From: Gloeobacter violaceus PCC 7421
GTDB taxonomy: Bacteria > Cyanobacteriota > Cyanobacteriia > Gloeobacterales > Gloeobacteraceae
Reading direction: 5' to 3'
Length of the DNA stretch: 64,000 nt
Assembly: GCF_000011385.1 (NCBI RefSeq)
Contig: NC_005125.1
Location: 2,728,001 to 2,792,000, forward strand
Shown here: positions 5,872 to 44,742 of the stretch, one piece after another
Layout of the letters: the number at the start of each line of letters is the position of its first letter
How positions within the stretch are numbered: the first letter of the stretch is position 1
Program-made: the position numbers and the translations under genes
The notes under the pieces: generated by a model
The model's input: the letters and a program-made list of their open reading frames with translations, nothing else
Database searches by the model: none
What the model was told of the DNA's origin: nothing

Positions 5872-6598
5872 AGGAAAAGTCTACCTGGTGGGGGCCGGAC
5901 CGGGCGATCCCGGACTTTTGACTGTGCGCGGCAAGACCCTCATCGAGCACTGCGATGCGATTGTCTACGACGCGCTGGTCAGCCCTGAAATTCTGGCGCT
6001 CATCCCGGCGCGTACCGAGCGCCTCTACGCAGGAAAGCGCTCCGGGCGTCACTCGCTGACGCAAGACGAAATTACCGAGCGGCTCATCGCCCTGGTGGAG
6101 CGGCACGCGAGCGTGGTCCGCCTCAAAGGCGGCGATCCGTTCATCTTTGGCCGGGGGGGCGAGGAAGTCGCCGCCCTGCGCGCCGCCGGTGTCGCAGTAG
6201 AAGTGGTCCCCGGCATTACCGCCGGTATCGCCGCTCCGGCCTACGCGGGCATTCCGCTCACCCACCGCGACATGAGCGCCTCGGTGGCCTTTGTCACCGG
6301 CCACGAGGCCGTCGAGACCTACCGTCCGGAGATCCGTTGGGGAGAGTTGGCCCGGGGGGCTGAGACGCTGGTGATCTATATGGGCGTGCTGCAGATTGAA
6401 TCGATCGTCGAGCGGTTGTTGGCGGCGGGGCGCGCCCCCGAGACGCCCGTGGCGCTGATTCGCTGGGGAACGACTCCTCGTCAGGAGGTACTGACCGGTA
6501 CCCTCGCTACGATCGCCCCCCGGGTGCGCGCGGCCCACTTCGAGCCTCCGGCGGTGATCGTCGTGGGCGAGGTGGCGAGACTGGCTCACACCGGCTGA
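5858..6598 (+). CDS. cobA: Uroporphyrinogen-III C-methyltransferase (SUMT)
   Basis: SAM-dependent methylation of uroporphyrinogen III at C2 and C7 gives precorrin-2, the branch point to siroheme and B12. Signatures are VYLVGAGPGDPGLLT at the N-terminus, YDALVSPEIL, VRLKGGDPFIFGRGGEE, VEVVPGITAGIAAPAYAGIPLTHR and VIYMGV. At 246 residues it is a single-domain SUMT, without the CysG oxidase/chelatase part; the upstream CbiX-like gene may supply the chelatase. The start is TTG 5858-5860 with GGAG at 5847-5850, inside the end of the upstream gene, which suggests translational coupling. Its 3' end overlaps the convergent Uma2 gene by 13 bases. Confidence 0.95.
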   Translation: MPSPRGKVYLVGAGPGDPGLLTVRGKTLIEHCDAIVYDALVSPEILALIPARTERLYAGKRSGRHSLTQDEITERLIALVERHASVVRLKGGDPFIFGRGGEEVAALRAAGVAVEVVPGITAGIAAPAYAGIPLTHRDMSASVAFVTGHEAVETYRPEIRWGELARGAETLVIYMGVLQIESIVERLLAAGRAPETPVALIRWGTTPRQEVLTGTLATIAPRVRAAHFEPPAVIVVGEVARLAHTG

Positions 6599-7161
6599 TT
6601 GAAGATGACCTTTGAATAGATGGTCCGCAGGGGCAACTCCATGGCGATGGAATCGAGATGGAGAACTTCAGCCTCTTCGAACAGTTGCACCTGCCACAGA
6701 TTTATGCCCTGCCTGCGGTAGAGACTTGCCGCCACCACCTGGCTATCGAGCAGTAGGTATTCCTGCAAAGTCTCAATCTTGCCGTAGTCGCGAAACTTCA
6801 CCGAGCGATCGAACTCGGCCGTATTCTTCGAAAGGACTTCGACAATCAGGCACGGGTACTGGAGCATGTAGCCGGTCGGTTCTTCGCGATCGTCGCAGCT
6901 GACGGAAACTTCCGGGTAGTAAAAAGGACCGGCCGGGCTACAGGCCACTTTCTGATCCGAGTTGAAGACACGGCAGAGGCTGTCTATCAGGTGGCCGTGG
7001 ACGGCAGCGGTGACGTTGACGGCGATCAGGTTGTGCGACTTGCTGCCGCCTGCCATCGAGAAGATGCGGCCGTACCGGTACTCGTACTTCTGAGGTTGCT
7101 CGCGCTCCCATCGCAAGAATTGCTCGGGACTCATCGGGCCGGGATCTTTGCTGAGAGCCAC
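6586..7161 (-). CDS. Uma2 family (DUF820) endonuclease-like protein
   Basis: A compact 191-residue Uma2 protein, close to the family's usual length. The order of signatures is MSPEQFLRWE, YEYRYGRIFSMAGGS, YYPEVSVSCD, LIVEVLSKNTAEFDRSVKFRDY and LQEYLLLD. The E and K of the nuclease-like core are present (IVEVLS, RSVKF), but the usual PD motif is PEV, so the first acidic ligand is Glu. The start is GTG 7159-7161 with GAGG about eight bases upstream. It is convergent with cobA. Function unknown; no partner gene is evident. Confidence 0.85.
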   Translation of the reverse strand: MALSKDPGPMSPEQFLRWEREQPQKYEYRYGRIFSMAGGSKSHNLIAVNVTAAVHGHLIDSLCRVFNSDQKVACSPAGPFYYPEVSVSCDDREEPTGYMLQYPCLIVEVLSKNTAEFDRSVKFRDYGKIETLQEYLLLDSQVVAASLYRRQGINLWQVQLFEEAEVLHLDSIAMELPLRTIYSKVIFNQPV

Positions 7162-7201
7162 TCGTCTGCCTCAATCGGCGCACTCCATTTTAGAGGCGGT
7201 A

Positions 7202-13675: not shown

Positions 13676-14740
13676 CTAATTGGACGGCCAGAGGCGGGCG
13701 ACGGGAACCTCCCAGCCCGCGAGCAACTCCGGCAGCCGCAACACATCGTCCTCTTTGAGGATCGCCGCTTTGTGCTTGCCGGGATAAAAAACGCTGATAC
13801 TGCGTCCGTGGGGATCGGCCATCCATCCCACCTGCACCCCCAACTCCAGCAATAGACGCATCTTCGCCGCCAGGACGCGCAACTGCCTCGTGTCATCGGG
13901 CCGTTCCACCACCAGCGCCGCCAGATCCGGGACGCGCGAATTGCCCGCGTACAAGCGCTCGCGCGAAAAATAGAGTACATCGGCCACCAGCACATCGCTG
14001 CCGGCCAGGATGGGGCTGGTGGTGGAGACGTGGCCAAGGCGGTGCGCTTCCACCCAGTCCAGCAGAGCCGCGCTCAGCCGCGTGCGCACTTCCCCCGCCG
14101 CGATCTGGGCCGGATAGATCTCCTGCACCAGAGCCGGGGCGGACAACGGATGCACCAACACCGGCGGGTGATTCTGGGCAGCGATCACGATGGGTTCGTT
14201 CCACTCGTCCTCATCGTCCGCTGCTACCCGGTTCAAAGTCTGGGTGGCGGCTGCACCGAAAGCGGCCACCAGGATGCCCGCCCGTTTTTCAAGTTCGCGC
14301 AGGTCGATGTTGAGATGACGAAAAACACTCGCCGCCCCGCCGCCGCGCTTGCCGGCAAAGAGGCATTCGCGCACCAGCCCAAAAAAGATATGGCAGGTAT
14401 CCATGTGGCTGTGGCGCAGTTGCTCGGACTGATCGAAGGCGATCTCCCAGGCGTAGCGGGCGCGCGGCGTGAAGGGCATCTCCTTGGGCACCAGCCCGGA
14501 GCCGCGGCCGATCAGCCGCTCGACGAGGCGACGGGTCGCATCGAGGTGCAGGCCCATTTCGGTGAGCACTTTTGCTTCTTCGCTGTGGCCTTCCGCGAGC
14601 AGTCCCAGCAGCAGATGCTCGGTACTCACAAACTGATAACCCAGCCGCTGCGCTTCGGTGCGGGCACAGTCGAGCACCCGGCGGGCGCTGTCGGTAAATT
14701 CGCCCGCAAGCGTTCCAAACATCGTCGAAGATTCAGGCAT
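13676..14740 (-). CDS. Clp N-terminal (R) domain fused to a Uma2 (DUF820) domain
   Basis: The frame from ATG 14738-14740 gives 354 residues. Residues about 7-150 are a double Clp_N repeat as found in ClpA/ClpC: FTDSARRVLDCARTEAQRLGYQFVSTEHLLLGLLAEG, then FTPRARYAWEIAFDQSEQLRHSHMDTCHIFFGLVREC. No AAA module follows. After a linker the C-terminal 190 residues are Uma2-like: VLVADVLYFSRERLYAG, then PDLAALVVERPDD, a lysine in AAKMRLLLELGVQVGWMADP, and SISVFYPGKHKAAIL. It is convergent with nadE and divergent from pcyA (103 bases). A Clp_N domain normally binds adaptors or substrates, so it may bring this nuclease-like domain to ClpC substrates or partners; that is inference. Confidence 0.85.
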   Translation of the reverse strand: MPESSTMFGTLAGEFTDSARRVLDCARTEAQRLGYQFVSTEHLLLGLLAEGHSEEAKVLTEMGLHLDATRRLVERLIGRGSGLVPKEMPFTPRARYAWEIAFDQSEQLRHSHMDTCHIFFGLVRECLFAGKRGGGAASVFRHLNIDLRELEKRAGILVAAFGAAATQTLNRVAADDEDEWNEPIVIAAQNHPPVLVHPLSAPALVQEIYPAQIAAGEVRTRLSAALLDWVEAHRLGHVSTTSPILAGSDVLVADVLYFSRERLYAGNSRVPDLAALVVERPDDTRQLRVLAAKMRLLLELGVQVGWMADPHGRSISVFYPGKHKAAILKEDDVLRLPELLAGWEVPVARLWPSN

Positions 14741-14843
14741 GGCTCGGCCACCCGAAAAGGCTCTTGCTTCTAGCGATGAAACGGCCCCGATTCTAGGCCC
14801 ACGGTACGTTACGATGCACGAAGGCAACCGGAGTCCACGACCG

Positions 14844-15575
14844 ATGCGCATGGAAGCGAAGACCGTCAAACCCAGGCACCCATTGGTGAGCCGCCTGGCC
14901 GAATTGCTGGTGAGCACCTGGGGAGAGTACCTGCAGCTGGAGCCGTATCACCTGCCGGCGGATCTGGGTTTTGTCGAAGGTCAGCTCGAAGGCGACAGGC
15001 TCACCATCGTCAACCGCTGCTACCAGAGCCGCGTCTTTCGCAAACTGCACCTGGAGCTCGCCACGATCGGGCCGAATTTGGACATTTTGCACTGCGTGAT
15101 GTACCCGCGCCCCCAGTTCGACCTGCCCATCTACGGCACCGACATTGTGGCGAGCACCCAAATGGTCAGTGCCGCCATCGTCGATCTCTCGCCCGTGCGC
15201 GGCGAGTTGCCGCCGGCCTACCTTGCAGGACTGGAGCCCAGCTTCGCGCGCTGCACCGATTTTGGTCAGTTGCGCAATCTGCCCCCCTGGGGAACGATCT
15301 TCTCGCCGCGCTGCGTGTTTGCCCGCGTCGTCACCCCCACCGAAGCCGACCTGTTCATGGAGATCAGCCGCGCCTATCTGCGCTTTCACTGCGAGCAGGC
15401 CGCCCGTGCCGAAGCGGTCGATACCGCCACCGAAGCGCAAATCCTGGCAGGCCAGCGGCACTACTGCGAGCAACAGCAACAAAACGATAAGACCCGCCGA
15501 ATCCTGGCGCAGGCCTTCGACGAAGCCTGGGCCGAGCGCTACATCCGCACGGTGCTGTTCGATTTGCCGCAATAG
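14844..15575 (+). CDS. pcyA: Phycocyanobilin:ferredoxin oxidoreductase PcyA
   Basis: Ferredoxin-dependent four-electron reduction of biliverdin IXalpha to phycocyanobilin, the chromophore of phycobilisomes and phytochromes. The 243-residue protein matches the family in length and sequence: YLQLEPYHLPADLG, FRKLHLELATIGP, LDILHCVMYPRPQFDLPIYGTDIV and IFSPRCVFARV. The catalytic Glu (LHLEL), His (LDILHCV) and Asp (GTDIV) are present. The start is ATG 14844 with GGAG upstream; an ATG at 14814 in frame would add ten residues. The ferredoxin-dependent bilin reductase family also includes PebA/PebB; the length and motifs favour PcyA. Confidence 0.94.
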   Translation: MRMEAKTVKPRHPLVSRLAELLVSTWGEYLQLEPYHLPADLGFVEGQLEGDRLTIVNRCYQSRVFRKLHLELATIGPNLDILHCVMYPRPQFDLPIYGTDIVASTQMVSAAIVDLSPVRGELPPAYLAGLEPSFARCTDFGQLRNLPPWGTIFSPRCVFARVVTPTEADLFMEISRAYLRFHCEQAARAEAVDTATEAQILAGQRHYCEQQQQNDKTRRILAQAFDEAWAERYIRTVLFDLPQ

Positions 15576-42552: not shown

Positions 42553-43308
42553 TCAACCCAGGGCATCGGGATCGATGCCCCGAGAGCGCAGGTAGTCGGC
42601 GAGCCGTTCGGCCCGTTGGCGCTCCTGTTCGGCGCGTTGCCGTTCTTGATCGGCGCGCTGCTGCTCCTGGGCGATACGCTCCTCGGCCTGTCTGTACCGC
42701 TCCCAGGCCGGCAGCAGCCGCTGTCCCTGCGCGTCGTACCAGTAGAGCCACTCGCGCTGCCAGCCTTCAAATTCGCCCTCAGCGCGGCCGAGACCCAACT
42801 GCAATTCAGGCAGCCACACCGGTTCGCCGGGCTGCAACACGTAGCCGGTGTCGGTGAGTTTGTAGACTTCGAGCGGCTGGGGTTTGGGTTTGCGCCGTCC
42901 GGGCTTCGGATTGTAAATCGCGTAGTACAGCACGCCCAATTGACGGTACAGCTCCATCTTGCGGTCGTACTCGCTGCGGTAAGTCTGGGAGACTACTTCG
43001 AGCACAAAAATCGGGACGGTGCCGTTTTCTTCCCACAGCACGTAGCTGAGCCGACCGGTCGGCTCGACGCGCCGCTCCACTCCGACGCTCAAAAAACCGT
43101 CCGGGACGACGGGCGGCTGCAGCGGGTCGAAGTAAATGCCCATGTCGATGGCAAAAAACCAGTCGTTGCGCTCAGCCCACAGCAACACCAGGATCGAGCG
43201 CAGCAGGGCGGGGACCAGATCTTGCAGTTCGTTGTCCACAGGCGTTTCGTCGGAATCAGGCAGTTCCGCCGAAGAGGGCAGGCACCGCAGCGGGTCGTAC
43301 TGAAACAT
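42553..43308 (-). CDS. Uma2 family protein with C-terminal coiled coil
   Basis: A 251-residue Uma2 protein from ATG 43306-43308, paralogous to the gene at the left edge. The core has VPDGFLSVGVERR, VPIFVLEVVSQTYRSEYDRKMELYRQLGVLYYAIYNP, with Asp, Glu and Lys of the nuclease-like site, then LQLGLGRAEGEFEGWQREWLYWYDAQGQRLL. The C-terminal 50 residues are a Glu/Gln/Arg-rich coiled coil with heptad-like EQERQRAEQ repeats ending in YLRSRGIDPD. This coiled-coil tail is common in cyanobacterial Uma2 proteins. Convergent with guaA, four bases apart. Confidence 0.88.
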   Translation of the reverse strand: MFQYDPLRCLPSSAELPDSDETPVDNELQDLVPALLRSILVLLWAERNDWFFAIDMGIYFDPLQPPVVPDGFLSVGVERRVEPTGRLSYVLWEENGTVPIFVLEVVSQTYRSEYDRKMELYRQLGVLYYAIYNPKPGRRKPKPQPLEVYKLTDTGYVLQPGEPVWLPELQLGLGRAEGEFEGWQREWLYWYDAQGQRLLPAWERYRQAEERIAQEQQRADQERQRAEQERQRAERLADYLRSRGIDPDALG

Positions 43309-43370
43309 AGTTGCCGGGAACACGGACAACGTTATTCTAGCAAGCCTGGTCAAATGTTCATGCCCTGGAT

Positions 43371-43823
43371 TCAACCGTGGAACAGTTCCGGCTGATTGCC
43401 GGTGTAGTCGGCCAGCAGTTGCTGGAGCTTCTCAGGAGCGATGCGCATCGCCCGGGCCAGAGCCACCATGTAATCGCGCTCCTCCGGGGAGACCTCCCGG
43501 TCGGCCAGGGCGGTCCGGACCGCCAGCTCGAAGGCGGGCTCCATCTCGTCCGGGGCGAGCGCCCGCACCGCTCCGTTGAATAGCGCCCCCGCCCCTTCTT
43601 CCTGGTAGATGCGATTGACCTTGGTACTGGCGGCCTGCATGGCGGCGGCATCGAATTCGGCGTCGAGCAGATGGTCTGCCATTACCCCCAGTTCTTCGGT
43701 CTGGACAACGCCGTCGCTAAACATCGCCAGTGCGCCGATGGCCAGCTTCGCCTCCTTGGCGCTCAACGGTTCGGTGCTCACCGCGGTGCTGTTGAACACA
43801 CTGTCGTACTCCCCGACAACCAT
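43371..43823 (-). CDS. TerB-like (tellurite-resistance TerB fold) protein
   Basis: A 150-residue all-helical protein from ATG 43821-43823, preceded by AGGAGG six bases away. LSAKEAKLAIGALAMFSDGVVQTEELGVMADHLL and FELAVRTALADREVSPEERDYMVALARAMRIAPEKLQQLLADY show the duplicated TerB pattern (acidic residues in a G.V...E turn). TerB proteins are thought to bind metal and are linked to stress responses. The gene stands alone next to Uma2 genes. Confidence 0.75.
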   Translation of the reverse strand: MVVGEYDSVFNSTAVSTEPLSAKEAKLAIGALAMFSDGVVQTEELGVMADHLLDAEFDAAAMQAASTKVNRIYQEEGAGALFNGAVRALAPDEMEPAFELAVRTALADREVSPEERDYMVALARAMRIAPEKLQQLLADYTGNQPELFHG

Positions 43824-44058
43824 TCTGGTCCTCCTGCGCAGACTACGGGAATAGCTACGTATCGGCATTTACGCCAAAACTTCCCGCGAAGATTTTACCA
43901 AATGCCACTTGAGCCGCGCATTTGCCGGTAGCGCAATAAGCATTCTTAACGTACTGTCGGCACCGACCCGCCGGGACGGTTTTGCCGGCAGTCGTCCCAC
44001 CCGGGCCGATGCGACAATGGCGGCAGGCGTGCGGCCCGAGGCCAAGAAGCCAAGTGCT

Positions 44059-44742
44059 ATGTTCCTACCTTCGGATCAAAAAATTCTCCCTCTAGAAAAC
44101 GGCGACCATTTGAACCGTGTGGAATTTGAGCGACGCTACGCAGCGATGCCTCACCTCAAGAAGGCGGAATTGATCGAAGGAGTAGTCCACTTGTCCTCAG
44201 CCGTCCGGTTTGCGTCCCATGCCGAACCCCATGCCTTGCTCATCACCTGGTTGGGGGTGTACCGGGCCGCCACGCCGGGTGTCCGGCTCGGAGACAACGC
44301 GACGGTCCGGCTTGACGGTGACAATGAGCCCCAGCCCGATGCCCTGCTGCGGCTCGACCCGGCCGTGGGAGGCCGCTCACGGCTGAGCGGCGACGGCTAT
44401 GTGGAAGGGGCGCCGGAACTGGTGGTGGAAATTGCGGCCAGCTCCGCTTCTTACGAGCGCAATCTAAAACTGTGCGCCTACCGGAGCAATGGGGTGCAGG
44501 AGTATCTGCTCTGGTTGGTCGAGGAGCAACGCCTCGAATGGTTCTATCTGGAGCAAGGGGAGTACGCACTTCTCAGCCCTGATGAGCAGGGCACCCTGTG
44601 CAGCCGGATTTTTCCGGGACTGTGTCTGGCCGTCTCTGCGCTGCTGGCGGGCGATCTGGCCCAGGTGCTCGGTACGGTGCAGCAACGCCTTGATACCCCT
44701 GAATACCGGGCTTTCAGCAACAGGATGCGTAGCGAGCTCTGA
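44059..44742 (+). CDS. Uma2 family (DUF820) protein
   Basis: A 227-residue protein from ATG 44059 (an in-frame ATG at 44017 is the alternative). Core blocks are FERRYAAMPHLKKAELIEGVV, PDALLRLDP, LVVEIAASSASYERNLKLCAYRSNGVQEYLLW and GLCLAVSALLAGDLAQVLGTVQQ, so the Asp, Glu and Lys of the PD-(D/E)XK-like site are all present. It belongs to a different Uma2 subgroup from the genes at 1-401 and 42553-43308. It precedes the small antitoxin-like ORF on the same strand. Confidence 0.85.
   Translation: MFLPSDQKILPLENGDHLNRVEFERRYAAMPHLKKAELIEGVVHLSSAVRFASHAEPHALLITWLGVYRAATPGVRLGDNATVRLDGDNEPQPDALLRLDPAVGGRSRLSGDGYVEGAPELVVEIAASSASYERNLKLCAYRSNGVQEYLLWLVEEQRLEWFYLEQGEYALLSPDEQGTLCSRIFPGLCLAVSALLAGDLAQVLGTVQQRLDTPEYRAFSNRMRSEL

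Follow-up and report, generated by a model that had tools for sequence, protein, structure and literature searches.

A ClpC-type double Clp_N domain fused to a Uma2 core beside pcyA in Gloeobacter: a possible ClpC2-like sensor-effector

Uma2 (DUF820, COG4636; PF05685) is a very abundant, uncharacterised cyanobacterial family, and little is understood of Clp_N domains (PF02861) that are not part of the unfoldase, ClpC2 and ClpT excepted. In ClpC, the ClpP-docking loops sit in the AAA modules, and the pocket Thr/Glu of the repeats in the Bacillus subtilis protein bind phospho-arginine. Mycobacterial ClpC2, a partial homologue of ClpC1, binds cyclomarin A and serves as an antibiotic sponge; it also represses its own promoter, a repression that ligand binding lifts (PMC10030653). 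Reports of ClpT, which associates with the ClpP ring, are limited to algae and plants (PMC7966870). COG4636 groups PD-(D/E)XK proteins in which the Lys has migrated (PD-EXX-K); Feder and Bujnicki predicted them to be nucleases and described the 95 genes of the family in Gloeobacter violaceus as possible selfish elements (PMC551604); the family has also been considered a likely solo toxin (PMC2701414). Our literature search did not find Uma2 and Clp_N mentioned together.

The two domains are joined in a gene of G. violaceus PCC 7421 (genome G000; single contig of 4,659,019 bp), within the 64,000-nucleotide stretch analysed here (positions 2728001–2792000; hereafter the window). The features of this gene, referred to as fusion A, and of related loci are collected in Table 1. 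We tentatively regard the protein as most likely a ClpC2-like sensor-effector, in which Clp_N would be the receptor and Uma2 the nucleic-acid arm, the promoter region of its own gene and pcyA being the likeliest target.

Table 1 Features of the fusion A locus and loci of related proteins (window positions unless a genome or locus label is given).
Feature	Position	Strand	Basis or remark
Clp_N-Uma2 fusion gene (family A)	13676..14740	(-)	354 aa, ATG at 14740
Double Clp_N domain, residues 14-160	14261..14701	(-)	Pfam, ClpC N-domain matches, orthologue alignment
Acidic linker, residues 161-212, pI 4.2	14105..14260	(-)	low model confidence; least constrained part
Uma2 PD-(D/E)XK core, residues 213-354	13679..14104	(-)	Pfam; 1wdj, 6okh, 9y1l, 3ot2 by sequence and fold
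D254, counterpart of the conserved Asp of COG4636	13979..13981	(-)	invariant in A orthologues; alignment to solo Uma2
E279, counterpart of the conserved Glu of COG4636	13904..13906	(-)	invariant in A orthologues; E-to-K spacing
K293, counterpart of the migrated Lys of COG4636	13862..13864	(-)	invariant in A orthologues; PD-EXX-K motif (PMC551604)
27-bp element CTAGCGA-N7-GCCCC-N-ATTCTAG	14770..14796	.	between fusion gene and pcyA
pcyA (ferredoxin-dependent bilin reductase)	14814..15575	(+)	Pfam Fe_bilin_red, E 3.5e-77
Fusion B	G000, about 2220655-2221647		genome coordinates; the B loci of G000 and G003 are the two listed next
Fusion B	L031:6156-7148	(-)	
Fusion B	L032:4987-5988	(-)	
Fusion C	L044:1258-2505	(+)	
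Fusion C	L084:1495-2700	(-)	
Fusion C	L085:1495-2661	(-)	
ArsR-type HTH with two Clp_N repeats	L006:1477-2334	(-)	
ArsR-type HTH with two Clp_N repeats	L008:1480-2343	(-)	

Architecture of the fusion and its relation to ClpC, ClpC2, ClpT and Uma2

Pfam analysis of the 354-aa protein revealed Clp_N in two stretches (E 1.9e-16; 60.4 bits against a gathering score of 20.7) and Uma2 at residues 210–348 (E 3.2e-13; 50 bits against 27), with neither an AAA module nor any third domain; no recognised helix-turn-helix (HTH) was found in the fusion A gene. A phmmer search of the PDB with the fusion returned ClpC N-domains (best E 4.5e-30), ClpC2 (9p2p, E 5.5e-12) and the Uma2 structure 1wdj (TT1808, E 4.7e-5), and a profile built from the fused Uma2 halves matched 1wdj (8e-17), 6okh (1e-13), 3ot2 (9e-8) and 9y1l (2e-6). 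In the AlphaFold2 model of the whole protein, the Clp_N double domain was confident, with much of it above 90 pLDDT, the linker (165–213) was of low confidence and the C-terminal part was weaker (mean pLDDT 67). Foldseek matched the Clp_N half of the model to ClpC N-domain structures (E ~1e-12), and this half also matched the plant ClpT1/ClpT2 structures (4y0b, 4y0c; E ~6e-8). Folded alone with AlphaFold2 from a five-row alignment, the C-terminal half reached a pTM of 0.68, and its first seven PDB fold matches were all Uma2/DUF820 (1wdj, 9y1l, 6okh, 3ot2); because this model is shallow, with an rmsd of 5–6 Å to the Uma2 structures, active-site details are not claimed from it. The initial annotation had read the gene as a Clp_N pair without AAA modules, joined in one frame to Uma2, and both halves of that reading, including the Uma2 fold of the C-terminal part, are borne out by Pfam, the PDB sequence search and the predicted folds.

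The profile match and the two helical repeats with ClpC N-domain fold place the protein in Clp_N, and the profile and PD-(D/E)XK fold place it in Uma2/COG4636; the AAA+ modules, Walker motifs and ClpP-docking loop of the ClpC/ClpA Hsp100 unfoldases are missing. Compared with the N-terminal domain of ClpC, the fusion keeps the fold, the two repeats and most of the pocket Thr/Glu positions (Thr and Glu in the first repeat, Thr in the second), but in all Gloeobacter copies of family A a Cys replaces the Glu of the second repeat, and the orthologue alignment revealed an A-specific insertion in repeat 2 around CLFAGKRGGG. Like ClpC2 and ClpT1/ClpT2, it carries a Clp_N double domain without AAA modules; unlike the fusion, none of these has a Uma2 domain, ClpT further differs in its ClpP-ring association and its reported distribution, and the ligand and DNA operator of ClpC2 have been measured, those of the fusion being hypothetical. 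Solo Uma2 proteins share with the fusion the profile, the fold, the D-E-K positions and the E-to-K spacing, but the fused domain sits behind Clp_N, has E-R-P at the EXK/EXR position and lacks the N-terminal Uma2 subdomain (the Pfam match begins at profile position 27), whose place is taken by Clp_N and the linker. The architecture is new and its parts are known, ClpC2 being an analogue for half of the fusion.

These features bear on a role as a Clp adaptor, decoy or modulator, the idea of the initial annotation. In such a role Clp_N would either draw clients or adaptors away from ClpC or attach to the Clp core in the manner of ClpT, and Uma2 would bring nucleic-acid-bound cargo or itself be a client. 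The good ClpC N-domain fold with its ClpT1/ClpT2 matches and the retained pocket residues are consistent with such a role, as is the existence of stand-alone Clp_N proteins, mentioned in the initial annotation and exemplified in the same genome by a 148-aa double Clp_N protein (G000:143605-144051 = L041:606-1052, (-)). The earlier suggestion that the protein mimics Clp is also plausible in one sense, since the domain copies the client/adaptor receptor of ClpC with the pocket Thr/Glu largely kept. However, the modules that hold the ClpP-docking loops of ClpC are absent, the pocket of repeat 2 has lost its Glu in Gloeobacter, gene order gave no link between fusion A and clp genes, and ClpT is confined in reports to algae and plants. 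We therefore consider an adaptor or decoy role rather unlikely, and a sensor-effector is a better reading than a part docking on ClpP.

Conservation of fusion A and its comparison with fusions B and C

Fusion A was intact in all four Gloeobacter genomes examined (G000–G003) and in a second genus (Gloeobacterales ES-bin-313, G004), and was not found in the remaining four Gloeobacterales genomes searched. Identity to the window protein was 96–97% in Aphanocapsa lilacina HA4352-LM1 (G001) and G003, 60% in G002 and 44–45% in ES-bin-313, and the start MP... was common to all five orthologues in the alignment; a scan of genome contigs with family A returned only A. lilacina HA4352-LM1 and ES-bin-313, and the Uma2 halves of A, B and C taken together gave no conserved stretch in such a scan. 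Whole-gene dN/dS of close relatives against the window copy was 0.14–0.18, with purifying selection on both halves and the linker as the loosest of the three parts. A sequencing artefact, the alternative raised in the initial annotation, is excluded because the frame is conserved across five genomes, including the second genus, with dN/dS well below 1.

The putative catalytic residues D254, E279 and K293 give fusion A the Asp, Glu and migrated Lys of PD-EXX-K proteins. About 30% of the Uma2 positions are invariant in the A alignment, so that invariance of all three residues by chance is estimated at ~3%. By inspection of the sequences, E279 and K293 are 14 residues apart, which is also the spacing in solo Uma2, and the E-to-K loop varies between 11 and 15 residues among the A orthologues.

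Class-wide searches of 390 genomes from 160 genera revealed full Clp_N-Uma2 fusions in at least eight genomes (A in at least five, B in at least two of those and C in at least three), counts that are lower bounds because scoring was limited to the few top candidates of each genome. Inspection of other cyanobacteria, as the initial annotation had proposed, thus placed the Clp_N-Uma2 architecture in a second genus and an Xre-Clp_N-Uma2 architecture in three other families. Fusion B has a Clp_N part ~80% identical to ClpC, and its Uma2 part has N/H, C/S and R at the D, E and K positions, so that all three residues are lost; its dN/dS is ~0.23. In both genomes B adjoins a 484-aa gene, and this neighbour is 98% identical between them whereas B is just 63% identical, with a dS of ~1.3 for B versus 0.22 for the neighbour gene, a pattern that we read as replacement by a paralogue, or transfer, at this one site. 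The B gene of G000 lies 2.7 kb from clpC. A. lilacina HA4352-LM1 contains a B-type Uma2 with no recognisable Clp_N part (L120:160-993, (-)), a remnant or recombined copy. Fusion C (G122, G192 and G282) consists of an Xre-type HTH_3, two Clp_N repeats and Uma2. Like A, it has the order Clp_N-Clp_N-Uma2, and its Uma2 is truncated at nearly the same place. It differs from A in its N-terminal HTH_3 and in the replacement of the nuclease-motif Asp by Arg or Lys; the three C loci have almost no neighbouring genes in common, and no pcyA-like conserved neighbour was seen at them. The pocket Thr/Glu are kept in B and C apart from one Thr-to-Ser change.

The distribution of the catalytic residues is relevant to a stress-gated nuclease or solo toxin, an active PD-(D/E)XK Uma2 that would be kept unstable or inactive by Clp_N and released once damaged protein overloads ClpC or a toxin blocks it. 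Fusion A, alone among the three fusion families, keeps the complete D-E-K set, and the published predictions for COG4636, as a PD-EXX-K nuclease (PMC551604) and as a likely solo toxin (PMC2701414), point the same way. However, B and C persist despite their lost catalytic residues, B under the constraint given above, and the E279 motif of A is remodelled in both its E-R-P sequence and its loop length. The flanks of fusion A, a NAD synthetase-like frame and pcyA, include no antitoxin-like neighbour, so the locus lacks the adjoining cognate antitoxin gene of a toxin-antitoxin module, and the only PADLOC match was marginal (E 0.0095). Such an activity is accordingly improbable, and a defence-system reading of the same marginal match was rejected.

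In the Uma2 tree, A, B and C each formed one clade. In the Clp_N tree, A formed one clade on a long separate branch, and B and C were not single clades. For a common origin of the fusions (A with the HTH-bearing family), p-AU was 0.117 for Uma2 and 0.058 for Clp_N, so that a single fusion event was neither established nor rejected. In plasmid records, no fusion reached 80% coverage of the query, and the matches listed were separate Clp_N or Uma2 ones; scans of viral contigs found no Uma2 and yielded 23 loci with ClpC N-domains, which were used for structure alignment. It is very improbable that fusion A arose as a side effect of Uma2 proliferation, when a mobile-like Uma2 gene landed behind a copied clpC N-domain to give a hybrid without a dedicated role: Clp_N and Uma2 are each frequent in these genomes and the 95 COG4636 genes of G. 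violaceus may be selfish (PMC551604), but both halves are under purifying selection with dN/dS values that already argue against it, the gene is old enough for two genera with 44–60% identity in its more distant copies, and its position beside pcyA is constant.

Other Uma2 loci were noted during these searches. L110:92-841 (+) and L118:257-916 (-) encode a strongly basic Uma2 (pI ~10) with the catalytic E changed to R and K to Q; they were rejected as a third fusion, Pfam finding no Clp_N in L110, of which L118 is a near-copy. A 500-aa open frame at 964 kb of G000 was likewise set aside, as it looks like a solo Uma2 gene within a long open frame. The window contains three more solo Uma2 genes (6589-7170 (-), 42556-43431 (-) and 43855-44739 (+)).

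The pcyA neighbourhood and loose Clp_N domains on DNA-binding regulators

In all five genomes with family A, pcyA is divergent from the fusion gene. The 17 kb around the pair in ES-bin-313 have only the fusion gene and pcyA in common with the 64-kb window; G002 has one further gene nearby. The other flank of fusion A is a convergent nadE-like frame, named from its sequence only, with a 3-bp gap. The gap of ~73 bp between the fusion gene and pcyA (14741–14813) contains the 27-bp element, whose fixed positions are identical in G000, G002 and G003, and no second site within 3 mismatches was found elsewhere in these three genomes. The conserved 30-bp block around the element beat 5000 shuffles; note that it lies in an open frame extending upstream of the pcyA ATG, so the block could be pcyA coding sequence or an ordinary promoter, and that shared ancestry may by itself explain why five related genomes keep the gene pair. 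Because NblA adapts ClpC to phycobilisomes, it was sought as a possible partner; NblA (PF04485) was absent in all nine Gloeobacterales genomes (G000–G008), and the control in Synechococcus elongatus was positive.

Clp_N also occurs on other regulators. Proteins with an ArsR-type HTH, a class read from the sequence, and two Clp_N repeats were found in 5 of 291 cyanobacterial genomes, and MerR proteins with a C-terminal Clp_N in two genomes (L035:4820-6157 (-), L037:1629-2912 (+)), one of these proteins carrying a TipAS antibiotic-recognition domain. Since Xre, ArsR and MerR proteins all carry it, loose Clp_N recurs on DNA-binding regulators, as in ClpC2. Together with the divergent pcyA, the HTH-bearing fusions and the ArsR and MerR proteins suggest a sensor or regulator role for fusion A.

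In the sensor-effector that we favour, a ClpC-type double Clp_N receptor, uncoupled from the unfoldase, would be joined to a nucleic-acid-acting Uma2 core. Clp_N would bind the partners of the ClpC N-domain, be they client peptides, an adaptor or a ClpC-directed small molecule, and occupancy of Clp_N would alter the engagement of DNA by Uma2, most likely at the promoter region common to the fusion gene and pcyA. We infer three steps, namely that Clp_N binds a ligand, that Uma2 binds DNA and that the protein controls pcyA, and we count in favour of this reading both folds, the selection, the invariance of D254, E279 and K293, the HTH relatives, the divergence of pcyA and the element in the gap. 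Among the properties of a ClpC2-like regulator, Clp_N without AAA modules is present in the fusion, and specific DNA binding with ligand-relieved autorepression is hinted at circumstantially by the divergent pcyA and the 27-bp element. Against this sensor-effector, fusion A has no recognised HTH of its own, no Uma2 protein was found reported in the literature to bind a specific operator, and the near-neutral Uma2 core (pI 7.1) of a net acidic protein does not favour tight DNA binding.

The conserved fusion and its HTH relatives suggest one testable hypothesis for both families, in which Clp_N is the receptor and Uma2 the arm that acts on nucleic acid. Should it hold, the principle of ClpC2, in which a copy of the receptor detects whatever strikes ClpC, would extend from mycobacteria to cyanobacteria, and proteostasis may be linked to the synthesis of light-harvesting pigment. 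A wider and more doubtful proposal is that loose ClpC receptor domains form a general sensory module of cyanobacteria on Xre, ArsR, MerR and Uma2 proteins, by which Clp load or poisoning would be read out on DNA, with Uma2 as the DNA-engaging output and the Gloeobacter member controlling phycobilin synthesis through pcyA. Separately, a 285-aa protein of G005 (L036:2625-3479, (-)) consists solely of four Clp_N repeats.
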